From: Chloroflexota bacterium
GTDB taxonomy: Bacteria; Chloroflexota; Anaerolineae; JAAEKA01
Assembly: GCA_034717495.1 (NCBI GenBank)
Contig: JAYELL010000016.1
Location: forward strand, 1-50,657
Direction of reading: 5' to 3'
Length of the DNA: 50,657 nucleotides
In this document: in pieces, positions 6,192-30,615 of the stretch
How the letters are laid out: each line of letters opens with the position of its first letter
Position numbering within the stretch: the stretch's first letter is position 1
Notes under the pieces: model-generated
Seen by the model: only the letters and a program-made list of their open reading frames with translations
The model's database searches: none
Told to the model about the DNA's origin: nothing
Position numbers and translations under genes: made by a program

Positions 6192-6305
6192 CACGGTTGG
6201 AAAAATGGGCAGCACAACGCTTTGATGGTAAACTTACAAGTTGTACCTGACACGATCTGGTCCTGTCACTGATGAAGATTGCGGGATCAAGTTGTTTGGC
6301 CTGTG

Positions 6306-25270: not shown

Positions 25271-26653
25271 CTACAGCGCGACAGCCTTGATGCCTGTCAA
25301 TTCGCAAAAAGCTATCAAATCATCATAGAGATGTTCGCCGTAACCCAACACTGCGTATTCATTGCCCCAGGCAGCGACAAGCTGGTCGATGTCGCAATGA
25401 GCGGTTACAAAGGCGTGAGGCCAGAAGGGAACGCCACATTCCCGTTGACGTTCTTCCAGCTCCTCGACGGGCGGTTCGAAAACTGAACAGCGGGCGACAA
25501 CCATCTCGAATTGGCCGTTGTTACGTCCCAGATGGGCCAGCACGCCCTCGCCGGCCTTGCAGACCAGCTTGACCGACAGGCCGCCGGCCTCCCCCTCCGT
25601 GGGAATCCCGTGTTCGGCGAAGCCTGCCGGCCCAACCTTGCTTGCCAGGGAAGGGGGACAGGTACCGTCGCCAATGATCTTGATCTCGTTGTTTGACTTG
25701 TCGATGTGCTGCAGGTCGCCGTAATAGACCCGCTCAACACTCAGATCGGTGATCAGCTTGACCGTCAGGGCTGTGTTGAAATCGCTCAGGGTGGACGTGC
25801 CAATGCCATGCTGCAACATCATGCTCTGGGCGAGGCAGGTAGCGCTGTAATCATCTCCCAGGCCAGGGAAGGATTGAATCGTATAAAATTCCCAATCCTC
25901 CTTCTCGACGATTGACTTGACGGCCAGGTACAATCTGATGGAACGCTCGGCCATATCGTCGTCGGGAATGGGGTCCGAGAAGAAGGGCTGGATCTCGTGC
26001 CGGGCTTGCTCGACATCCTCCATCGAGAATCGTTTCGCTGTTTCGATCAGCGCCGTGGTATCGCGCCTGTCGATGTCCACGCCGAAGAGCTTCATCCATT
26101 GAGAAGGATCGGCCACGCCGCACGTCTGGCCCATGCCCCGGCCGCCAAACGCGCCCAGCGTGCTCATGTTGAGTCTGTTTTTCTCATGGCTGGCCCGGCA
26201 ATAGGAGACGATGCCATCGATCGCATCAGGATCATTGGAGGCGCCATACACAAAACGATGCTGGATACCCACCTCTTTCAGCGCTCCGTGCATCACCAAA
26301 CCACCGACTGGCCTCCAACCTTGCGAGCCGGGATGAGTCCAGAGCACGATGCCATTGCCCGTGAACGAGAAATCACGAAGCGCAGCGACGAGATGCGCCG
26401 CCCATACCCAGGTTCCGGAAAACAATACCAGGGCGTCGATGTCATCCTGTTTCTTGAAGCGAGCAAAACACTCTCTGGCTTCCTGCTTGCTGGCGATGAT
26501 GACATCGTATTCGATCAATTCCATGCCGGCGCCGCGCAGGGTCTCTTTGGCGTCAGCAATCACTTGTTCATCGATGAAGGGTGCGCCCAGGGGATCTAAA
26601 AGGCCGTCCTTGTGCACGCCATAAACGATGAATCCGACTTTGGGTCTGATCAT
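25271..26653 (-). CDS. L-fucose/L-arabinose isomerase-family protein
   Basis: 460 residues with the FucI/AraA-like fold: an N-terminal Rossmann-like domain ('KVGFIVYGVHKDGLLDP', 'DALVLFSGTWVWAAHLVAAL'), a middle domain ('GAFGGRGMGQTCGVADPSQW'), and a C-terminal domain ('HIDKSNNEIKIIGDGTCPPSL', 'EHGIPTEGEAGGLSVKLV'). These enzymes convert aldoses to ketoses with a divalent metal. The protein is shorter than classical FucI and falls in the broad L-fucose/L-arabinose isomerase family, whose members include many of unknown substrate. AGAGGA lies 8 nt before the ATG. The neighbouring cupin, mutarotase-like protein, polyol dehydrogenase and FGGY kinase imply a complete aldose or polyol route. Confidence 0.85.
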   Translation of the reverse strand: MIRPKVGFIVYGVHKDGLLDPLGAPFIDEQVIADAKETLRGAGMELIEYDVIIASKQEARECFARFKKQDDIDALVLFSGTWVWAAHLVAALRDFSFTGNGIVLWTHPGSQGWRPVGGLVMHGALKEVGIQHRFVYGASNDPDAIDGIVSYCRASHEKNRLNMSTLGAFGGRGMGQTCGVADPSQWMKLFGVDIDRRDTTALIETAKRFSMEDVEQARHEIQPFFSDPIPDDDMAERSIRLYLAVKSIVEKEDWEFYTIQSFPGLGDDYSATCLAQSMMLQHGIGTSTLSDFNTALTVKLITDLSVERVYYGDLQHIDKSNNEIKIIGDGTCPPSLASKVGPAGFAEHGIPTEGEAGGLSVKLVCKAGEGVLAHLGRNNGQFEMVVARCSVFEPPVEELEERQRECGVPFWPHAFVTAHCDIDQLVAAWGNEYAVLGYGEHLYDDLIAFCELTGIKAVAL

Positions 26654-26778: not shown

Positions 26779-27216
26779 TCACGGAAGGGGTTCACCGGTT
26801 ACATCGTCGAACATAGCCAGCGTTTGCTGCCCATGCACAGGTATCCGCAATTCCTTATCCAGAACGGTGCACATAATACCAAGCAGCTCATCCTCAGCCG
26901 CCCGGAATTGATGGATCTCGTCCGATTCGACAAAGATAGCATCGCCAAACTGGATGGGAAAGACCTCTTCTCCAAAACGGACTGTTCCCCGCCCGCGCAG
27001 GACCAGAACGGCGTGCTCGTAATTATGCTGTTCATAATTGCTGCATGCGCCCGGCTCTATTTCAAAATAGCGCAACTCCAGGTTATTGGAATCGTCCTGC
27101 CGGCTGATAAAGCGCCGCACCGAAATGCCAGGTCTGAGCGGGCCATAGTCCTCGACAGGAACACCTTGCCAGTCCCAACCTCCATTTTTGCCTTGAAAGT
27201 GATGGATAGTGCCCAT
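26779..27216 (-). CDS. Cupin-domain protein
   Basis: A 145-residue single-domain cupin. Motif 1 'HNYEHAVLVLRGRGTVRFG' and motif 2 'IQFGDAIFVESDEIHQF' form a metal-binding beta-barrel; the first motif lacks the usual His-x-His spacing but keeps His/Glu/His. It could be a sugar isomerase-type cupin or a small sensor-like protein; the substrate is not readable. The start at 27216 is set by GGAGG 9 nt upstream. First gene of the - strand unit (then a 125-nt gap to the isomerase-family gene), transcribed from the promoter at 27393-27421. Confidence 0.82.
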   Translation of the reverse strand: MGTIHHFQGKNGGWDWQGVPVEDYGPLRPGISVRRFISRQDDSNNLELRYFEIEPGACSNYEQHNYEHAVLVLRGRGTVRFGEEVFPIQFGDAIFVESDEIHQFRAAEDELLGIMCTVLDKELRIPVHGQQTLAMFDDVTGEPLP

Positions 27217-27440: not shown

Positions 27441-27475
27441 TTTCATTTGACAACTACTTTCATTTGTTGTAGAAT
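27441..27475 (+). promoter_or_regulatory. Promoter of the polyol dehydrogenase unit with TTTCATTT repeats
   Basis: TTGACA (27447-27452), a 17-bp spacer and TAGAAT (27470-27475). TTTCATTT occurs at 27441-27448 and again at 27458-27465, overlapping the -35 box and the spacer. TTTCRTTT repeats are typical DeoR-family operators (for example AgaR), and a DeoR gene lies at the end of this unit. Confidence 0.7.
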
Positions 27476-27507: not shown

Positions 27508-27891
27508 ATGCCAAATACACCTTTTGTAGAAAACCAACAGATCGGCTCTGCATTGCCCGCTACCCAGTGGGTCTGGCGATTGTACGGTGCGGGCCTATCC
27601 AAACTGAGTATGTCGGAGCAACCCCTGCCGGCTCCCGAACGCTCGATGGTTGCTCTAGCCGGCCTGAAGCAATTGCCTCATGCTCTGCAAACGATGATTG
27701 ATGCCGTTTACCCTGGCAAAATCATAATCTTTCCGGCGCTCCTCGATTTCCCCTTAACTGCCCTCACCGATTTGCAATATGTCTTGCCGCAGGTGTACGT
27801 TAAGCTGGGTGACGGGCGAACCTGGACGGCTGAAGCCGAAGAAGCTTTTCTGGAAACGATGCAAACCGGGGGGGAGGAAGCGAGTGATTGA
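27508..27891 (+). pseudogene. Internally deleted zinc-type alcohol dehydrogenase relic
   Basis: 127 residues from ATG 27508 (GGAG 9 nt upstream). The N-terminal part, 'TQWVWRLYGAGLSKLSMSEQ', looks like the start of a medium-chain dehydrogenase. The C-terminal part, 'GKIIIFPALLDFPLTAL' and 'LGDGRTWTAEAEEAFLETM', looks like its end. The zinc ligands and nucleotide-binding domain (some 200 residues) that should lie between are missing at about residue 40. Its frame is intact and its end overlaps the next gene by 8 nt, so it could still serve translational coupling or be a small protein. The family assignment is from recalled sequence patterns. Confidence 0.5.
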
Positions 27892-29062
27892 CAAAAATGT
27901 GGTGATCTGGGGCGCCGGGCGAATCGGGCGCGGCTTTGTCGCCGACCTGTTCAACACGGCCAACTATCAACTGACTCTGGTCGACCAGTCGGCAGAATTG
28001 ATCGCTCAACTTCGCCGGGCCGGCCAGTTTACCGTGGTCCGGGCCGCCAACGTCGAGGAACGCCACGATCAGATTATCAGCGGCTACACCGCCCTGCAGA
28101 CCACACAAACCGCTGAGATCGCCGCCGCCGTTTCAGCCGCCGACTCGTTGGCGGTGGCCCTGTTTCCTCAGGATTTTCCCAGCGCGGTCCAACAGCTGCT
28201 TCCAGGGCTGACCCGTCGCCAGGCGGAACGACCCGACGCAGCGCTGGACATCATTCTGTTCACCAACCTGTCTCATGCGGCGCTTCTCTTCCAGGAGCAA
28301 TTGCAAAAGGCGTTGCCGCCGGACATGCAAGCCTACGCAGCCAGTCGCATCGGTGTGGTCGAGAGTCTGGTCATTCGCATGGTGGCCGAACCACCCGCCG
28401 AACTCAAAGAGCGTGAGCCGTTGCTGGTGTGGACCAACGGTTACAGCGAACTGCCGGTCGATCGGCGTGCTTTCAAAGGGAAAGTTCCCCAACTTCCCGG
28501 CTTGCGCCTGGTCGCTGACATGCGGGCCGAGGAGATACGCAAGATGTATACCTATAATATGTGCCACGCGGTGCTGGCCTATCACGGCGCCCGCCGGGGG
28601 CACACCCTGGCCGTGCAATGTCTTCACGACCCCCAGGTGCGGGCTGAAGCAGAGGGCGCGTTGGCTGAAGTCAGCCGGGCCCTGCAGCTTGAATACGGAT
28701 TTAGCGCCGACGGGATGGCTCGCTGGAATGAAAATGTTCTGCGCCAGACCGATAATCCAACCCTGGGCGATACCGTGGCCCGCCACGGTGCCGACCCGCG
28801 ACGCAAACTCAAGCGCAGTGACAGATTAGTCGGCCCGCTTTTGCTGGTCCACAAGCATGATCTGCCAGCTCCCTATCACGTTCGAGCCATTGCTGCAGCT
28901 CTCTGTTTTCAAGACCCCCGCGATGCCGGCGCTGTTTACGTACAAAAACAGGTGGCTGATCTCGGCGTGGAATCCGCCGTTCGTGAGTTGTGCGGATTGA
29001 CCGAAGCCGAGGACGACCTGGTCGAGTCGATTGTTGGCGCATACGGGCAACTCGCAGCTTAA
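27884..29062 (+). CDS. Mannitol dehydrogenase-family polyol/sugar-phosphate dehydrogenase
   Basis: A 392-residue NAD-dependent enzyme of the long-chain polyol dehydrogenase family. 'VVIWGAGRIGRGFVADLFN' is the Rossmann motif at the N-terminus, and 'KMYTYNMCHAVLAYHG' near 220 carries the catalytic Lys/Asn/His region seen in mannitol-1-phosphate 5-dehydrogenases and fructuronate reductases. It would oxidise a polyol, or a polyol phosphate, to a ketose. The start is GTG 27884, with GGGGAGG (27871-27877) 6 nt upstream; it overlaps the previous frame by 8 nt. It is followed 44 nt later by an FGGY kinase, which fits polyol to ketose to ketose phosphate. Confidence 0.85.
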   Translation: MIDKNVVIWGAGRIGRGFVADLFNTANYQLTLVDQSAELIAQLRRAGQFTVVRAANVEERHDQIISGYTALQTTQTAEIAAAVSAADSLAVALFPQDFPSAVQQLLPGLTRRQAERPDAALDIILFTNLSHAALLFQEQLQKALPPDMQAYAASRIGVVESLVIRMVAEPPAELKEREPLLVWTNGYSELPVDRRAFKGKVPQLPGLRLVADMRAEEIRKMYTYNMCHAVLAYHGARRGHTLAVQCLHDPQVRAEAEGALAEVSRALQLEYGFSADGMARWNENVLRQTDNPTLGDTVARHGADPRRKLKRSDRLVGPLLLVHKHDLPAPYHVRAIAAALCFQDPRDAGAVYVQKQVADLGVESAVRELCGLTEAEDDLVESIVGAYGQLAA

Positions 29063-29106: not shown

Positions 29107-30615
29107 ATGAGTCTCGCGGGTCTTGATATTGGTACCACTGGCTGTAAGGCCGTGGTCATCACCACCGAAGGAGCGGTATTGGGCAAAGCCGGGCGCGAGT
29201 ATAAGCTCAGCGTGCCGCAACCGGGCTGGGCGGAACTTGATTCTGAAGAGGTGTGGGCAGCTGTCCAGGACGTGCTGCGGGATGTGGCGGCCGCAACCCA
29301 TGCCGACCCGGTAGAAGCGATCAGCGTGTCGGCTATGGCGGATACCGTCACTCCATTTGACCAGGATATTAATCCACTCGCCGCCAGTATCGTGTCGTTT
29401 GATGCCCGGTCTGCTGCTGAAACCCAGGAGATATGCAACCTGGTGGGACGGGAATGGCTTTTTCAGACGACCGGCATGCCGCCCCACTCGACCCACTCAG
29501 CCACCAAGATACTCTGGCTGAAGAACCACCGTCCTGGCCTCTTCAGGCAAACCCGTTGGTTTCTGTGTTACGAAGACTTTGTTCTGGCAAAACTGGGCGC
29601 TGAACCAGCCATCAGCACCTCCAACGCGGCCCGGATGATGATGCTCGACCTGGGCCGGTTGACCTGGCAACCTCAGCTCCTGGAAATCTGCAGCATCTCG
29701 CCAGAGCAATTGGCCGCACCGACTCAGTCAGGCGTCATGGTCGGTGAGATCGACCGGCAGTTGGCAGCAGAATTAGGCTTAAGGCCGGAAGTCAAACTGG
29801 TTAGCGGGGGCCACGATCAGCCATGCGCTGCGCTGGGGAGTGGGATTGTGTCCGAAGGCATGGCTCTGGATACCACCGGCACAGTTGAAGTGTTATTGGT
29901 GACATTCCAGGAGCCCCTGCTGGATCAGGCCATGCTGGATGGGTATCTTTGCTGCTATCCACACGCTTACCCCGATCGTTACTGCAGCTTTGCCCAACTC
30001 CAGGGAGCTGGCGCCGCTTTTCGCTGGTTCAGAGACCGTTTGGGGCATGAAGAAGTTGTTGAAGCTCTCCCGGCCCGGGCCGATCCCTATGACCTGATTG
30101 TCTCCAAACTGCCTCGACAGCCAACCGGTCTTTTTGTTCTGCCTTATCTTGCCGGCAGCGGCACCCCCACGATGAACCCAGCGGCAAAAGGTTCCATCTA
30201 CGGACTGACCCTGAATACTGATAAATACGATCTGGCGCGAGCTATCCTGGAAGGCGTCACATACGAGTTGAAAACCAATATCGACCTGTTCGAGTCGACC
30301 GGAACAAAGATTGAAGCCATCAAAGCGGCAGGCGGTGGAGCCAGGTCTGATTTTTGGCTGCAACTCAAAGCCGACATCACCGGTCGGGTCATCGAGGCCA
30401 ACCAGCAGACCGAGGCAAGCGCCCTGGGCGCAGCGATCCTGGCTGGCTACGGGCTGGGGTGTTATTCCACCCTGGAGGAAGGGATTAAAGCCGTTGAATC
30501 TCCAACACGGGCCTTCCACCCTGACGCCGAAACCCATGCTCGTTATCAGGAAGACTTCGCCAAATATGTGGTATACAGGGAAGCAATGAGCGATCTTTAC
30601 AGCTCACTATCCTGA
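29107..30615 (+). CDS. FGGY-family carbohydrate kinase (xylulokinase-like)
   Basis: A 502-residue sugar kinase. The N-terminal ATPase motif 'GLDIGTTGCKAVVI' is followed by 'SGGHDQPCAALGSGI' near 230 and 'DTTGTVEVLL', with the C-terminal 'AAGGGARSDFWLQLKADITG' (adenine/ATP site). The overall pattern is closest to xylulokinase-like members, which phosphorylate ketoses (xylulose, ribulose, fuculose and others). AGGAG precedes the ATG by about 10 nt. It follows the polyol dehydrogenase gene and precedes a DeoR regulator, so it most likely phosphorylates the ketose made by the dehydrogenase or by the isomerase of the divergent unit. Specificity is not readable. Confidence 0.88.
   Translation: MSLAGLDIGTTGCKAVVITTEGAVLGKAGREYKLSVPQPGWAELDSEEVWAAVQDVLRDVAAATHADPVEAISVSAMADTVTPFDQDINPLAASIVSFDARSAAETQEICNLVGREWLFQTTGMPPHSTHSATKILWLKNHRPGLFRQTRWFLCYEDFVLAKLGAEPAISTSNAARMMMLDLGRLTWQPQLLEICSISPEQLAAPTQSGVMVGEIDRQLAAELGLRPEVKLVSGGHDQPCAALGSGIVSEGMALDTTGTVEVLLVTFQEPLLDQAMLDGYLCCYPHAYPDRYCSFAQLQGAGAAFRWFRDRLGHEEVVEALPARADPYDLIVSKLPRQPTGLFVLPYLAGSGTPTMNPAAKGSIYGLTLNTDKYDLARAILEGVTYELKTNIDLFESTGTKIEAIKAAGGGARSDFWLQLKADITGRVIEANQQTEASALGAAILAGYGLGCYSTLEEGIKAVESPTRAFHPDAETHARYQEDFAKYVVYREAMSDLYSSLS

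Follow-up and report, generated by a model that had tools for sequence, protein, structure and literature searches.

The zinc-type medium-chain dehydrogenases/reductases include a branch of about 570 residues, and two full-length members of it are encoded in the Chloroflexota genome described here: a 576-aa protein on contig 39 (L002 1498–3225, reverse strand) and a 571-aa protein on contig 103 (L003 1495–3207, reverse strand). Both carry PF08240 (ADH_N) by Pfam, and PF00107 (ADH_zinc_N) is present in both, just under Pfam's cut-off in the contig 103 protein; no NCBIfam model reaches its cut-off for either. The AlphaFold2 model of a full-length family protein (mean pLDDT 94.8) has structural counterparts in the PDB among zinc-type dehydrogenases of 345 aa, which Foldseek finds with a best E of 5e-19 and aligns over 520–540 columns at about 15% identity. 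The family is some 220 aa longer than these PDB proteins (about 345 aa), which suggests that a large insertion is present; this may be a second Rossmann-like unit.

Here, we describe a 127-codon frame, located at the head of a sugar-alcohol operon, that has the N-terminal ~40 and the C-terminal ~78 residues in common with this branch, including the nine invariant positions of its C-terminal end. Unlike the ~570-aa proteins, it is without about 454 residues, i.e., the GroES-like zinc domain and the Rossmann core. The other systems to compare it with are bacterial pseudogenes and deletion remnants. Like these, the frame appears to be non-catalytic, stands at the original place in its operon, and has a counterpart in a relative that carries a different deletion. 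Unlike these, it is still in frame with a promoter and a ribosome site, which is what one would expect of a deletion that happened fairly recently. We consider it highly probable that the frame is a decay product, a deletion relic of the first gene of the operon and not a new protein, and we read the deletion as fairly recent.

The short frame and its origin

The frame occupies positions 27,508–27,891 (forward strand) of the stretch of 50,657 nucleotides that was analysed (the window), from an ATG start to a TGA stop, and encodes 127 aa. It is preceded by a strong sigma-70-like promoter, TTGACA-17-TAGAAT (11/12; 27,447–27,475, forward strand). The next gene, which belongs to the mannitol-1-phosphate 5-dehydrogenase (MtlD) family (27,884–29,062, forward strand), has its own GGAGG site and starts with GTG at 27,884, giving an overlap of 8 nt with the end of the short frame. 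The preliminary description of this frame, its promoter and the overlap is borne out in all three respects. An FGGY carbohydrate kinase gene (xylulokinase-like; 29,107–30,615, forward strand) is the next gene of the operon, and upstream lies a divergent cupin gene (26,779–27,216, reverse strand), a neighbour that is conserved in genomes G230 and G179. Beside the operon, 25,271–26,653 (reverse strand) is weakly L-fucose isomerase-like, with two Pfam domains below their cut-offs. The codon adaptation index of the short frame, 0.622, is coding-like but low: among in-frame stretches of the window genes it ranks at the 6th percentile, and it exceeds the value of 0.606 that marks the 99th percentile for off-frame stretches.

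The short frame is without a match in Pfam and NCBIfam, and neither the GroES-like catalytic domain with its zinc ligands (PF08240) nor the Rossmann cofactor domain (PF00107) is found in it by Pfam. Its ends are therefore recognisable only against the ~570-aa dehydrogenase family. The C-terminal part matches the two full-length paralogues of the same genome at E 2e-20 and 2e-19, and a search of the class with the short frame gives matches at E up to 0.001 in 127 of 396 genomes (best 3.5e-23). Both parts can be traced to one and the same full-length gene in genome G194, where residues 3–49 match one end (44% identity, E 1.6e-6) and residues 33–118 the opposite end (42%, E 8e-21).

We aligned the frame to 60 full-length members, i.e., 60 of the 61 distinct frames of at least 540 aa, leaving out the one frame of over 600 aa (L031, 850 aa). 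Residues 1–40 of the short frame (27,508–27,627, forward strand), the family N-terminus that precedes the GroES-like zinc domain, pair with residues 1–39 of the 571-aa contig 103 paralogue, while residues 43–120 (27,634–27,867, forward strand), the last ~78 residues of the family, pair with its residues 494–571. The junction falls at residues 41–43 (27,628–27,636, forward strand), where 454 residues are missing, the zinc and cofactor regions among them. Thus, both ends of the full-length gene are present and its middle is gone. This agrees with the preliminary description, which had read the ends as the termini of a dehydrogenase without the zinc and Rossmann core and had placed the junction at about residue 40. 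In annotation, the frame should not carry the name alcohol dehydrogenase.

In a leave-out profile test with the 60 relatives, the C-terminal part scores lower than 56 of them and the N-terminal part lower than all 60, and a direct parent is not found. The departures from the family are concentrated beside the junction, where 7 of 11 conserved positions are changed, more than in any of the 60 relatives, against 5 of 28 further away (23 of 28 kept; Fisher p 0.017). These changes fit a loss of constraint where the missing core would have packed, and a divergent parent could contribute.

The same gene in related operons

The closest MtlD-like protein is found in genome G230 (75% identity over 390 residues), and its neighbours correspond to those of the window as well, with 77% identity for the cupin and 68% for the kinase. 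The dehydrogenase gene is absent there, and about 270 nt separate the cupin and MtlD-like starts. The promoter regions of the two operons align with a local score of 76 (best of 2000 shuffles, 38), the G230 promoter lying at L089 around 6197–6225. Identical promoter hexamers with identical spacing occur in the cupin/operon intergenic region in two different families of the class, which hints that the operon has moved between lineages.

The leader of the MtlD-like gene in G230 retains a trace of the dehydrogenase. It reads AEAKIIFL followed by a stop, in register with AEAEEAFLE of the window, and the dehydrogenase family ends in a conserved motif of the AEAEEAFL type. The window codons AEAEEAFLETM (27,829–27,861, forward strand) correspond to L089 6250–6282. 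Over these 33 nt of dehydrogenase-homologous codons in fixed register, 21 positions match G230, which none of 100,000 shuffles reaches, for a stretch that was picked after the alignment was seen and shuffles that preserve base content only. The same spot is also the best ungapped match of the 33 nt on the entire 10.4-kb G230 contig, both strands included. Extended to all 63 nt that precede the MtlD-like start, the comparison gives 33 matches (0 of 100,000 shuffles). By themselves, the last 22 nt before the start are unremarkable (10/22; 3426 of 100,000 shuffles). A free local alignment of the entire short frame to the G230 leader gives a score of 22, which is not significant (reached by 105 of 2000 shuffles), so the argument for a relic depends on the register being fixed. 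In view of this in-register family-end motif, it is very probable that the dehydrogenase gene was once present in G230 and that nearly all of it was lost.

Full-length genes at the same place in relatives had been named in the preliminary description as a finding that would speak against it. We looked for them beside all eight MtlD-like relatives of at least 54% identity, G230 included, and there are none in the stretches fetched. In one of the relatives, on contig C519 of G179 (65% identity), an empty stretch of about 90 nt separates the cupin gene from the MtlD-like gene. Further away in the class, MtlD-like genes occur in 62 other genomes, and 18 of these have a family member, either full-length or cut by a contig end, at most 1 kb upstream of such a gene and on its strand, as counted by hand from match positions; the MtlD-like proteins of these 18 genomes are only 30–36% identical to that of the window. 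The dehydrogenase and MtlD-like matches are 20–70 nt apart in four of the 18, the gap is a few to a few dozen bases in G164 and G035, and on contig C489 of G179 the stop of the full-length gene and the MtlD-like start overlap by 4 nt as ATGA. Since full-length relatives adjoin or overlap MtlD-like genes in this way, the 8-nt overlap of the window is likely an inherited operon layout. With an inherited overlap and a ribosome site of the MtlD-like gene's own, coupling requires no special retention of the short frame.

MtlD-like relatives at E up to 1e-90 were found only in the source genome itself in a sample of 400 genomes of the phylum. The class holds a separate MtlD-like clade, 54–76% identical to the window protein, and this protein scores 213 in the best NCBIfam MtlD model, where the cut-off is 368. 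Because of the low score and the separate clade, its substrate may be other than mannitol-1-phosphate.

Distribution and age of the short form

The preliminary description had asked whether relatives keep the same short form. Among the matches listed from the 396 genomes of the class there is no other short form; all 14 listed frames of fewer than 500 codons run into contig ends. The short protein matches 8 of the 12 genomes in the family of G230, with short forms only as contig-end cuts. A pattern scan of the genome collection gave one relative (40% identity), located in a 592-codon frame, and the viral contigs gave none. A search of the literature, covering titles and the beginnings of abstracts, gave nothing on this case. 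Thus, the short form is not conserved in relatives, and the relic in G230 ends in a stop.

At fourfold sites of the MtlD-like gene, the window and G230 are identical at 100 of 157 positions, which corresponds to ~0.25 substitutions per neutral site per lineage since their split if equal rates are assumed. In simulated neutral decay, a frame without stops remains in 9% of runs with 0.2 and in 4.5% of runs with 0.3 substitutions per site, and at ~0.25 a neutral frame of this length would survive in only about 5–9% of cases. As such survival is unlikely, either the deletion probably occurred later than the split from G230 or the frame was kept.

Alternative explanations and the probable loss of the first gene

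Several observations do not sit easily with decay. There is no orthologue with a full-length gene at exactly this place, the genomes that show the adjacency have only distant MtlD-like proteins, and the frame is still open and coding-like despite the low neutral survival. In addition, AlphaFold2 predicts most of the C-terminal part (residues 45–120) with a pLDDT above 90. This confidence, together with the open frame and the conserved positions that are mostly kept away from the junction, would speak for a new functional small protein made from the joined ends of the dehydrogenase. However, AlphaFold2 was run with 41 and with 40 sequences selected from the aligned family, and the pLDDT of the short product derives from the alignment of the parent family. 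Residues 1–40 are mostly poor (average 50–64), and an independent fold of the short product was rejected after a Foldseek search of the PDB with the short model yielded nothing below an E of 1. With the many changes beside the junction, and neither a second example among the matches listed for the class nor a relative in the viral contigs, while the one relative from the pattern scan sits in a much longer frame, we regard a new protein as very improbable.

The remnant could instead act as a translated leader. Ribosomes that reach the end of the short frame would then unfold the structure covering the ribosome site of the MtlD-like gene and reinitiate at the overlapping GTG, which would make operon translation dependent on the remnant. 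The overlap itself agrees with this, the G-rich ribosome site is paired with CUUUUCUGG in the predicted fold, and the same close or overlapping arrangement with MtlD-like genes is seen in full-length relatives. But the predicted mRNA fold over the site is no stronger than in shuffles (z 0.03), and in G230 it is weaker than in most shuffles. The G230 operon presumably works without such a gene in front, no relative among the matches listed keeps the short form, and any coupling would be inherited and not evolved for the remnant. We find the leader unlikely, and that a dead enzyme gene was reused as a regulatory upstream frame, coupling MtlD-like translation to the promoter, would be less likely again, though a residual role of the remnant in translational coupling is possible. 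An assembly that skipped the middle of a gene intact in the organism is conceivable for a draft of 120 contigs with 3.4% contamination. This was rejected, as a genome search for an orphan middle piece found none; elsewhere in the source assembly, the only other hits are the full-length paralogues on contigs 39 and 103 and short matches that fall in ordinary dehydrogenases. Divergence from the family is also seen next to the junction, and G230 too is without almost the entire gene, so we give an assembly error hardly any credence.

The reading as gene decay, therefore, upholds one half of the preliminary description, namely that a zinc-type dehydrogenase gene heading an operon has undergone an internal deletion that preserved the frame. 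The other half, that the product is retained for a purpose, is not supported: no relative keeps the short form, the G230 operon deleted the gene almost completely, and next to the junction the short frame has diverged from the family.

From sequence comparison, we suggest the following order of events. The ancestral operon would have run from the promoter through a ~570-aa zinc-type dehydrogenase and an MtlD-like dehydrogenase to an FGGY kinase, and its two dehydrogenase genes would have adjoined each other directly or overlapped. In the window lineage, about 1.36 kb would then have been lost in frame from the middle of the dehydrogenase gene, leaving the promoter, the ribosome site, the start, ~40 N-terminal and ~78 C-terminal codons. 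A larger deletion in the G230 lineage would have begun at the ribosome site and spared only the last ten codons or so. Either deletion would join the promoter to the MtlD-like gene, and the downstream enzymes would stay expressed. The short product is probably still translated but would be made without zinc, cofactor and substrate sites, and presumably has no enzyme function. The wider interest of the case is small; it would be a snapshot of one first operon gene lost through two different deletions in two lineages, with the promoter and the downstream genes spared.
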